Source of the DNA: a virus | Direction: 5' to 3' (one strand) | Length of the DNA stretch: 20,028 nt | IMG/VR virus record: IMGVR_UViG_3300035670_001500 | Location: 1-20,028 of that record | Shown: positions 1 to 13,593 of the stretch, piece after piece | Numbering within the stretch: position 1 is the stretch's first letter | Layout of the letters: each line of letters opens with the position of its first letter | The notes under the pieces: generated by a model | Seen by the model: only the letters and a program-made list of their open reading frames with translations | What the model was told of the DNA's origin: nothing | The model's database searches: none | Position numbers and translations under genes: made by a program

Positions 1-143
1 TCCTTAATCCATTGGTTCAACAGAGAGATGTAAACAGTTCTCTCCCAGGGCATCATATTCTCGACCTCTGTCAAGCTATATTTATGGTGCTGCATGAGGG
101 AGAAATTTGTTCTATAATAGTTCTCAAGGTTATTATAGAACAT
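1..143 (-). CDS. gp51-like ORF next to gp26, truncated at window edge
   Basis: The first 47 codons of a minus-strand ORF that runs off the left edge. It opens with MFYNNLENYYRTNF and contains an ENMMPWERTVYISLL segment. Its position directly after gp26 matches T4, where gene 51 (baseplate hub assembly catalyst, not found in the virion) follows gene 26; the gp51 name is therefore mainly positional. The ATG lies only 2 nt after the gp26 stop. It is half buried in a 12-bp stem-loop (108-142) and has only a GGATAGGG stretch directly against it as a ribosome site, so independent initiation looks poor. The ORF is in the -1 frame of gp26 and could be translated as a gp26 extension by frameshifting. 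That the ORF is real is fairly certain; its exact identity is not. Confidence 0.65.
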   Translation of the reverse strand, partial: MFYNNLENYYRTNFSLMQHHKYSLTEVENMMPWERTVYISLLNQWIK

Positions 144-158
144 CCCTATCCGAAAAAA
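108..158 (-). other. Putative -1 ribosomal frameshift signal at the gp26/gp51-like junction
   Basis: In gp26 reading frame the codons AGT TTT TTC place a canonical X XXY YYZ heptamer, T TTT TTC, at 158-152. After a 9-nt spacer (151-143) comes a perfect 12-bp inverted repeat (142-131 pairing with 119-108, 11-nt loop). Slipping back one base after TTC reads CGG ATA GGG ATG and continues in the downstream ORF, bypassing the gp26 TAG at 148-146. Heptamer, spacer length and stem all fit known -1 frameshift sites. Function is inferred. Confidence 0.7.
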
Positions 159-871
159 CTTTGTAAGCCCTCCAACGTGTAGGTCGATTCAACTCCAGTG
201 TTTGGATTTGTTACTTTAAAACTATGTCTAAGTACAGGCATTGTTTCAAAGAACTGCTGTACTTTTTCAAATTGTTCCTGAGTCATTTGATCTAGGAAGT
301 CAATAATATATTGAGGCTTCAAATCAGATGCTTCCCAAACTTCTTCGCCATTAAAGATCTGATCGACACACTTACCAATCAAAGTAAATAATTCTTCTGT
401 TGTTGACAAATCTTTATTGAGCAAAGTGATTTGAATGAATTGATCCATACCAGGATATTTCATGACAATACCAACATCATCTTGAATCATAATCTTATTG
501 GTATGACCTTCTGGTTTTTCTACCTCAACTTCATCAAGATCAATAGAAACAGTAACCTGAGTTTCGTTGTCATCGAGACAAGTTACTTTCATTTTGACTT
601 CTGATCCTGCTGATACAGATCTAATCTTCAGGAACAAATATTCGAGATCAAAAGATGCTAGGCTCTCAACTTTGAATCCTCTAGTCTGAATACAGTTCTT
701 TAAGATGTCTCTAACAGCAGATTCGATTTGCTTTTCATCTTCTGATTCCATAGCAAGAAGTAAAACCTTCTCTTCTTTTACTAAGAATGGTCTGTATTTA
801 ACTGTCTTTCCTGTTGATGGTAGTGCTACCTCATAAGTAGGCACAGACAAAGTAGGTAATGGTGAAGACAT
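146..871 (-). CDS. 26: gp26 baseplate hub subunit / assembly chaperone-like protein
   Basis: A 241-aa protein recognised as the T4 gp26 baseplate family of cyanophages (Pfam T4_baseplate type). It begins with a proline-rich tail, then TGKTVKYRPFLVKEEKVLL, a hallmark of this group. The middle is beta-rich and the C-terminal third acidic and helical (DLKPQYIIDFLDQM). T4 gp26 is needed to build the central baseplate hub. A late-promoter-like ATAAATA box lies upstream at 900-894, overlapping the end of gp54, so gp54 and gp26 share orientation but gp26 may have its own late start. The last codons, AGT TTT TTC GGA TAG, contain a slippery heptamer that may yield a longer gp26-gp51 fusion. Confidence 0.85.
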   Translation of the reverse strand: MSSPLPTLSVPTYEVALPSTGKTVKYRPFLVKEEKVLLLAMESEDEKQIESAVRDILKNCIQTRGFKVESLASFDLEYLFLKIRSVSAGSEVKMKVTCLDDNETQVTVSIDLDEVEVEKPEGHTNKIMIQDDVGIVMKYPGMDQFIQITLLNKDLSTTEELFTLIGKCVDQIFNGEEVWEASDLKPQYIIDFLDQMTQEQFEKVQQFFETMPVLRHSFKVTNPNTGVESTYTLEGLQSFFG

Positions 872-893
872 AACAATCTATTCTATATGTTAA

Positions 894-900
894 TATTTAT
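894..900 (-). promoter_or_regulatory. Late-promoter-like ATAAATA box for gp26
   Basis: The minus strand reads GGATAAATATT, overlapping the gp54 stop codon, 23 nt before the gp26 ATG. It resembles the T4 late consensus TATAAATA used by gp55/gp33-directed polymerase. The match is 7 of 8 positions and the context fits a late gene. Confidence 0.5.
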
Positions 901-1691
901 CCAGCCATCTTACGAATATCATTATATACGATTGAATACTTAGAATAATAAAAGTTTGCTGTTACTTTGGTTATTTGAGAGGCACCATAAGCAAGAGGAA
1001 CAGCATCAATAGCATATGGAAAACAATCAATCATTGTATACATCATCGATGGTCTACCATTAGGAGCATTTTTTCCTCGTTCAGATTTAGTGATAATAAT
1101 ATTACATTGATATTCATCTGGATATCTTAATCTAATTGATTTGTCTCTAGAAGATAAAGTTCCTGTTTCAGACTTCATCTTGTCCAAACTAACTCCAGTT
1201 TTATTAAATGTTGTTGCTGAACTAGGAGCTACAGTAGAACCAGCTGATCCTAAAATTTCAATACCACCAGAATCAAACTCACCAAAAATAAAAGAGTACC
1301 AAGCATTAAGAAATTTCAATGGTGTCATGTTGGCATCACACATCCAACCTAGTTGAAAATCTGTGTGTAATTTAGTGTGAGCATAATTTACGTTACCTTC
1401 CCCAAGCATTCTTCCATTTATTTGCCCAGTTGCTGCTTGTACATTTGGTAGTTGTGCTTCCTCACAAAAGACTTTCAAAACAGAGGCAGTACTTACATTC
1501 AATCCTTCATCAGAAGAAGAAGAATTTTTCATATTTAGTTTCAAGCTGTTAAATCTGTTCAACAAATCACCATTTGTAGAAGTGAATTGAAACTCCACAT
1601 CAAAGTTATTGCTATATGACATACCCCCCTGGGCAGCCATAATTTCCATGAATTTTGCTAAACTTTTTGTTGATGTCTTCTTTGGTGCCAC
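897..1691 (-). CDS. 54: gp54 baseplate tail-tube initiator
   Basis: A 264-aa protein of the tail-tube fold shared by T4 gp19 and gp54. The C-terminal half carries the family pattern: a YPDEYQCNIIITK strand, then MIDCFPYAIDAVPLAYGAS and TKVTANFYYSKYSIV, where tube proteins have a conserved pre-sheath interface. In T4, gp54 sits on the gp48/gp27 hub and nucleates gp19 tube polymerisation; gp48 is encoded just across the divergent junction. The start is a GTG at 1691 with no clear Shine-Dalgarno; a later ATG (residue 15) is possible. A CATAAATA late-like box lies 28 nt upstream. Distinguishing gp54 from gp19 rests on the length, the divergent N-terminus and baseplate-gene neighbours. Confidence 0.75.
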   Translation of the reverse strand: MAPKKTSTKSLAKFMEIMAAQGGMSYSNNFDVEFQFTSTNGDLLNRFNSLKLNMKNSSSSDEGLNVSTASVLKVFCEEAQLPNVQAATGQINGRMLGEGNVNYAHTKLHTDFQLGWMCDANMTPLKFLNAWYSFIFGEFDSGGIEILGSAGSTVAPSSATTFNKTGVSLDKMKSETGTLSSRDKSIRLRYPDEYQCNIIITKSERGKNAPNGRPSMMYTMIDCFPYAIDAVPLAYGASQITKVTANFYYSKYSIVYNDIRKMAG

Positions 1692-12513: not shown

Positions 12514-13593
12514 TCAGCCAATTGCTGGAGCAGTGAGAGCAACAGAAGTGCTATCAGCAGCAGCAAGATCGAGAGGGAAGTTATGAGCATTACGCTCGTG
12601 CATTACTTCCATACCAAGACCACCACGATTGAGGATGTCTGCCCAAGTGTTGATCACATGACCCTGACTATCCTGAATAGACTGGTTAAAGTTGAAACCA
12701 TTCAGGTTGAATGCCATGGTGCTAACACCAAGAGCAGTAAACCAGATACCAACAACAGGCCAAGCAGCAAGGAAGAAGTGAAGTGAACGAGAGTTGTTGA
12801 ACGAGGCGTACTGGAAGATCAGGCGACCGAAGTAACCATGAGCAGCTACAATGTTGTAGGTCTCTTCTTCTTGTCCAAACTTGTACCCATAGTTCTGTGA
12901 CTCGTTTTCTGTAGTCTCACGAACAAGACTAGAGGTGACAAGAGATCCGTGCATAGCAGAGAAAAGAGAACCACCGAAGACACCAGCAACTCCCAGCATA
13001 TGGAAAGGGTGCATAAGAATGTTGTGTTCTGCCTGGAAAACAAGCATGTAGTTGAAAGTTCCCGAAATCCCAAGAGGCATTGCGTCACTGAAGGATCCTT
13101 GACCAAAGGGATAGACCAGGAACACTGCAGAAGCAGCAGCAACGGGTGCAGAGTAGGCAACACAAATCCAAGGACGCATGCCCAATCTGTAAGACAGTTC
13201 CCATTCACGACCCATGTAGGCATAGATACCAATTAGAAAATGGAATACGACCAATTGGAATGGTCCACCGTTATATAGCCATTCATCAAGTGAATTTGCT
13301 TCCCAGATAGGATAAAAGTGAAGACCGATAGCGTTGCTTGATGGAACAACAGCACCAGAAATGATGTTGTTGCCATACATTAATGAACCAGCAACAGGTT
13401 CACGGATACCGTCGATATCGACAGGGGGAGCAGCAATAAAAGCAACGATGAAACAGATAGTAGCAGCCAGGAGAGTGGGGATCATCAGGGTGCCAAACCA
13501 ACCGACATAAAGACGGTTGTCTGTGCTGGTGATCCAACTACAAAACTGTTCCCAAGTGCTTTCTTGCCGACGTTGGGCAATTGAAGCGACCAT
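12514..13593 (-). CDS. psbA: Photosystem II D1 protein
   Basis: A full-length 359-aa D1 that replaces photodamaged host D1 during infection. All key residues are in register: TyrZ Y161, D170, E189, H190, pheophytin-side E130, chlorophyll ligand H198, iron ligands H215 and H272, plastoquinone site F255 and S264, and manganese ligands H332, E333, H337, D342 and A344. Processing after A344 would release a 15-residue tail, [16 protein letters not shown]130 is the high-light (D1:2-like) state. Five membrane helices are evident. It has its own strong sigma70 promoter, a leader hairpin, a GGAG ribosome site and a terminator, and so is a monocistronic unit. GC-richer codon use than its neighbours suggests host origin. 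No intron is present. Confidence 0.99.

Follow-up and report, generated by a model that had tools for sequence, protein, structure and literature searches.

A Very Likely Programmed −1 Frameshift Signal for Two Tail-Assembly Chaperone Forms at the gp26 Junction of a T4-Like Marine Phage

Anatomy of the gp26 junction

The window, that is, the whole stretch of DNA analyzed here, is a virus record of 20,028 bases, and the feature under study lies entirely on its minus strand. There, a tail tube protein gene is followed directly by gp26, and the end of gp26 overlaps, in the −1 frame, a gp51-like open reading frame (ORF) that runs to the edge of the window. The features are as follows.

897 to 1691, minus strand: the gene preceding gp26, for a tail tube protein (PF23849 Phage_TTP_2, E 2.7e-52; phrog_45 tail tube)
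146 to 871, minus strand: gp26, the putative short tail-assembly chaperone form (TAC-N), 241 aa, stop included in the coordinates
168 to 173, minus strand: internal Shine-Dalgarno (SD)-like GGAGGG, 9 nt before the heptamer
152 to 158, minus strand: slippery heptamer T TTT TTC, read from the sequence and in phase in relatives
3 to 152, minus strand: −1-frame extension (gp51-like, putative TAC-C), 50 codons up to the window edge
143 to 151, minus strand: spacer GGATAGGGA (151-143), 9 nt, on the gp26 side of the stem
146 to 148, minus strand: gp26 0-frame stop TAG, one codon past the heptamer
108 to 142, minus strand: putative stimulatory stem-loop, with arms 142-131 TGTTCTATAATA and 119-108 TATTATAGAACA and loop 130-120

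On the minus strand, the 3′ end of gp26 reads AGT TTT TTC GGA TAG. A ribosome slipping by −1 would go on through CGG ATA GGG ATG TTC, in a frame that is open for 50 codons to the window edge; since the contig ends within the extension, only these 50 extension codons are present. The stem (142-108) consists of 12 perfect pairs around a loop of 11 nt. An ATG at 143-141, 2 nt past the gp26 stop, has its T and G inside this stem. The original prediction, made from the window alone, had described the heptamer, the 9-nt spacer, the stem and its loop, the −1 reading through CGG ATA GGG ATG into the gp51-like ORF, and the half-paired ATG, and all of these agree with the sequence base for base, coordinates included. 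The GGAGGG at 173-168 is an additional element that was absent from it.

Elsewhere in the window, the translation of an ORF at 12514-13593 (minus strand) reads by eye as photosystem II D1 (psbA), which fits a cyanophage. The DNA comes from a T4-like marine phage, most likely a cyanophage.

Selection on three RNA elements

For comparison, we used gp26 relatives from viral contigs and phage records, in which 195 loci had a readable junction; 101 of these, at less than 85% nucleotide identity, form the nonredundant subset. The combination that the original prediction expected relatives to share, a heptamer and a −1 relation between the two frames, is kept in 193 of the 195 loci, as an in-phase T TTT TTN beside the gp26 stop with the −1 frame open, and the extension measures 55 to 68 codons in relatives. 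By annotation, the heptamer occurs in phages of Synechococcus, Methylophilales, Sinorhizobium, Acidovorax, Stenotrophomonas, and Cronobacter; further carriers are Prochlorococcus, Vibrio, Aeromonas, and Rhizobium phages, among them the Straboviridae members Vibrio XZ1 and Aeromonas ZPAH1 as well as Rhizobium RHph_I1_9. Homologues lacking both the heptamer and the −1 relation, which the original prediction had named as evidence against itself, amount to a single locus among the 195, L090 of an Escherichia phage of the T4 subfamily, which has neither the heptamer nor the extension.

The second exception, the Stenotrophomonas phage locus L200, carries T5 in place of T6 (2738-2777). The near-identical loci L088 and L199 have T6, and the gp26 ORF of L200 runs into a third frame; the T5 is possibly a homopolymer sequencing error or else a real loss. 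Separately, gp26 homologues from Ackermannviridae (L213:3150-3400 and L214:3150-3370) have an open −1 extension and no classical heptamer, reading CTTTTTC and GGTTTTC.

Within the nonredundant subset, the gp26 stop follows the heptamer immediately or one codon on in 100 of 101 loci, and the P-site codon is TTT in all of them. Over the full set of 193 heptamers, the last base is mostly C, with A, T, or G in other lineages. Preceding the slip, the nonredundant loci have AGT, TCT, AAT, GAT, or GGT, so that the amino acid varies while the third base is T in 101/101 (log10 P of about −20.6 for this constant T, an overstatement because the loci are treated as independent). Other FF pairs in the same gp26 genes are written T TTT TTN in only 1 of 109 instances. 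T4-type phages encode the long form in a gene of its own, and their gp26 often keeps FF but writes it TTC TTT, which is nonslippery. These patterns of codon use indicate that the heptamer is under selection as RNA.

The internal SD shows a comparable pattern. In the window, GGAGGG (173-168) is predicted to pair with the anti-SD at −9.8 kcal/mol. Under the criteria given in PMC4066793 for spacing found stimulatory in experiments, with the SD-like sequence 6 to 17 nt upstream of the motif, 81 of the 101 nonredundant loci have an SD motif at the proper distance against 49.5 expected from synonymous recoding; at other places in gp26, the motif is found in 11%. Likewise, the Glu codon at the SD site is GAG in 71/90 cases versus 30% elsewhere. 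We conclude from these frequencies that the internal SD is under selection beyond coding.

For the hairpin, the window alone gives a weak signal (151-nt fold against dinucleotide shuffles, z −1.5), and the shuffle test was replaced by a synonymous-codon null, consisting of recodings of the same −1-frame peptide, over the 101 loci. The hairpin site folds better than its synonymous recodings, with a mean z of −1.89 (se 0.14), compared with −0.02 in the same test 60 nt further downstream and a slight effect in the upstream gp26 control (z −0.56). A sliding stability profile peaks at +6 to +42 after the heptamer (ddG −3.78, se 0.31), and the stability excess stays below 1 kcal/mol in profile windows that do not overlap the hairpin.

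Across lineages, the hairpin lies about 5 to 11 nt downstream of the heptamer. Its stem has 12 to 14 bp in the clade of the window and about 9 to 11 bp in two other clades; in a large group of loci, a stem of 5 bp closes a 4-nt loop. Compensatory changes were detected in three sister clades: in clade C, three pairs are altered at both positions without loss of pairing, and in clade D, four of five pairs have such double changes, with covariation scores that 0/500 shuffles reach in either clade; clade B has one covarying pair, and 1/500 shuffles reach its score. Hairpin shape played a part in choosing the clades, so these counts lean toward structure; the synonymous-recoding test is independent of clade choice. 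Among the five sequences of the window's own clade, which are too alike for it, no covariation signal was obtained. The expectation that the stem would be conserved with compensatory changes was thus borne out for covariation, in the sister clades, and not for the 12-bp stem itself, which occurs only in close relatives. We considered and rejected one conserved stem for every lineage, since hairpin sequence and length differ between them. At some sites (e.g., L023, L033, L089, L127, and L152), the hairpin is weak or absent, and it is therefore not universal. Taken together, the comparison indicates that the downstream hairpin is kept by selection at a constant position, with a sequence that changes between lineages.

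Two bases of the ATG at 143-141, its T and G, are paired within the stem in the window, as they might be if the hairpin were a start-site regulator, or else a terminator, and slipping were minor or absent. However, clade B has a hairpin at the same distance with no ATG there, and no T-run follows the stem, which makes such roles exceedingly unlikely.

In dnaX-type signals, an SD-like sequence lies upstream and a stem-loop about 5 to 10 nt downstream. Both are found here, the stem-loop under selection, and with SD, heptamer, and hairpin all present, the signal is therefore dnaX-like, in three parts. This arrangement also bears on transcriptional slippage, in which RNA polymerase would insert an additional U while copying the T6 run, so that ordinary translation would produce the same fusion. 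The site does have six to seven Ts, and the protein product would be identical. However, six Ts are a short run for polymerase slippage, and most loci have six only. Moreover, the phase is conserved, and the SD, 9 nt ahead of the heptamer, and the hairpin, about 5 to 11 nt past it, are stimulators spaced for a ribosome; we regard slippage during transcription as extremely improbable.

Coding in the −1 frame and T4 counterparts of the two proteins

Public records for S-PM2, phiM12, P-HM1, and MC09 annotate the gp51-like ORF as a gene of its own, and an ATG stands just after the gp26 stop in 48 of the 101 loci, the window included. The ORF might accordingly be a separate gene, with translation beginning at a start codon of its own or resuming by termination-reinitiation where gp26 stops, and the T-run being incidental. 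Several findings speak against this. In 37/101 loci, the first ATG of the extension comes no earlier than 10 codons after the slip, and 21 of these loci have no GTG or TTG in that stretch either. At the first ATG, the anti-SD duplex averages −0.01, versus −1.24 at random places and −2.98 at gp26 starts; that the gp51-like start lacks a well-placed ribosome site had been predicted for the window and holds on average for the extensions. Upstream of any ATG, coding constraint is already that of the −1 frame, with a third-position excess of 988 versus 539 and 554, and in late-ATG loci residues such as L8, Y11, N15, and F16 are conserved before the first ATG. Furthermore, the slippery codons are maintained against codon drift, and T4 gp51 corresponds to the fused form by profile alignment. 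An independent gene is thus very improbable. As in other chaperone frameshifts, there is an overlapping −1 ORF without a translation start of its own, and the evidence argues against independent initiation of the extension, which keeps a small probability in the 48 loci with an ATG just after the gp26 stop.

In the Cronobacter S13 and Acidovorax ACP17 records, the extension is unannotated. Every annotated record that we examined either has separate entries for the two ORFs or omits the second, and the product lists of these abundant marine phages therefore lack the long chaperone.

Concerning protein identities, gp26 matches PF12322 T4_baseplate (E 1.3e-72) and phrog_150 (E 4.6e-77), as do both T4 gp26 and T4 gp51. 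With hhalign, the short form aligns with T4 gp26 end to end (probability 99.5) and the fused form aligns with T4 gp51 through its C terminus (98.9). The extension alone aligns to positions 207-247 of T4 gp51 and not to gp26; it matches phrog_634, "baseplate hub assembly catalyst" (E 1.1e-24), as well as positions 239-278 of phrog_150. The short form is thus the counterpart of T4 gp26 and the long form that of T4 gp51, C terminus included. No match to gp26 was found among PDB sequences. Its predicted structure is confident (pLDDT 91.8), and the two best of 350,542 PDB chains are the HK97 tail assembly chaperone 2ob9, below significance (E 0.93 and 2.0; target TM 0.40), a suggestive likeness of the modeled fold.

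The tail tube gene upstream of gp26 is the canonical neighbor of tail-assembly chaperones. The gene after the extension lies outside the window; it is a weakly supported tape measure candidate, by matches in S-PM2 and by the phiM12 annotation. In S-PM2, this gene (S-PM2p207; L083:3880-6708) encodes a large protein with an N-terminal ADP-ribosyltransferase match (PF01129, E 8e-6) along with matches to peptidase and tail lysozyme and weak ones to tape measure proteins. The proposal that gp26 and the gp51-like protein are the T4-type equivalent of the lambda G/GT chaperone pair is supported by synteny and the full-length profile alignments to the T4 proteins and weakly by the fold.

Proposed mechanism and comparison with known systems

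The comparative evidence makes a programmed −1 frameshift at the end of gp26 very likely, and we are highly confident in reading the site as the signal by which a T4-like marine phage would make both tail-assembly chaperone forms. In our model, most ribosomes would stop at TAG and yield gp26, the short form TAC-N. At T TTT TTC, two Phe-tRNAs could re-pair one base back, with GGAGGG 9 nt upstream and the hairpin 9 nt downstream holding the ribosome on the slip site. A fraction of ribosomes would then continue in the −1 frame and add the gp51-like domain of about 60 residues, giving the long form TAC-NC. Coating of the tape measure protein would be the expected task of the short form, and recruitment of tail tube subunits that of the long form. 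The slipping itself, its rate, and the chaperone action are what we infer from these features. In the T4 lineage, the two forms come from separate genes, 26 and 51, and the slippery codons are gone. Genes 26 and 51 of T4 are reportedly named in the 2022 paper of Vladimirov, Gautam, and Davidson.

The frameshift would explain the apparent truncation of cyanophage "gp51," reported to be about 20% of T4-type length with roughly the first 200 residues missing, for which the account of Sullivan et al. 2010 (PMC3037559), in the portion dealing with it, gives no explanation. The ORF would be the second half of a frameshift product rather than a truncated gene. This rereading of the "short gp51" gene and the extra RNA elements are well supported, and the RNA anatomy is fuller than originally predicted. 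The loci also provide a large natural data set on bacterial −1 signals, in which heptamer phase, SD, and hairpin position are kept as the hairpin sequence drifts.

The signal is a further case of a known chaperone frameshift and ordinary in kind. With dnaX-type signals, it shares an SD located about 10 nt ahead of an XXXYYYZ heptamer and a stem-loop after it; it differs in its U-rich heptamer, in the stop codon within the spacer, and in the gene and purpose served. The lambda heptamer differs from T TTT TTC, which in the window is accompanied by an SD and a hairpin. As in the window, lambda G/GT-type chaperone genes adjoin the tail tube gene, and lambda and other long-tailed phages share the end-of-gene −1 slip with short and long forms (Xu, Hendrix & Duda 2004). 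Most long-tailed phages produce their chaperone pair by such a slip. The chaperone frameshift of Vandenendeviridae and Andersonviridae (PMC12846349) shares a poly-T slip at the TAC-N 3′ end and an uninterrupted −1 frame, and its extension is unannotated or separately annotated, as in T4-like relatives; unlike the window, it belongs to other phage families and uses a GTTTTT motif.

The original prediction knew of no description for T4-like cyanophages. The equivalence has nevertheless been described: as cited in PMC10885494 and PMC12846349, the study of Vladimirov, Gautam & Davidson 2022 (Virology 566:9-15) had already established which proteins serve T4-like phages as tail-assembly chaperones, and the core frameshift-chaperone idea was therefore already known. 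According to PMC12846349, the TAC-N genes of T4-like phages have slippery sites of the poly-T type, and PMC10885494 gives, for some of these phages, a separate short gene and a fused long gene. For the SD and hairpin elements, we found no description in the literature consulted, where the 2022 study is represented by the papers citing it, and this RNA anatomy, with its internal SD and with covarying hairpins that differ from lineage to lineage, may be new. We see roughly an even chance that the full picture holds, with a dnaX-like trio (internal SD, U6N heptamer, hairpin) in marine T4-like phages, a hairpin rebuilt from unrelated sequence in different lineages at an unchanged position, two genes instead of the signal in the T4 lineage, and a previously undescribed RNA part. 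The gp26/gp51 pair of the T4-like set of Vladimirov et al. 2022 comprises the same genes as in the window, and what the present analysis documents in comparison is the internal SD and the covarying hairpins of individual lineages.
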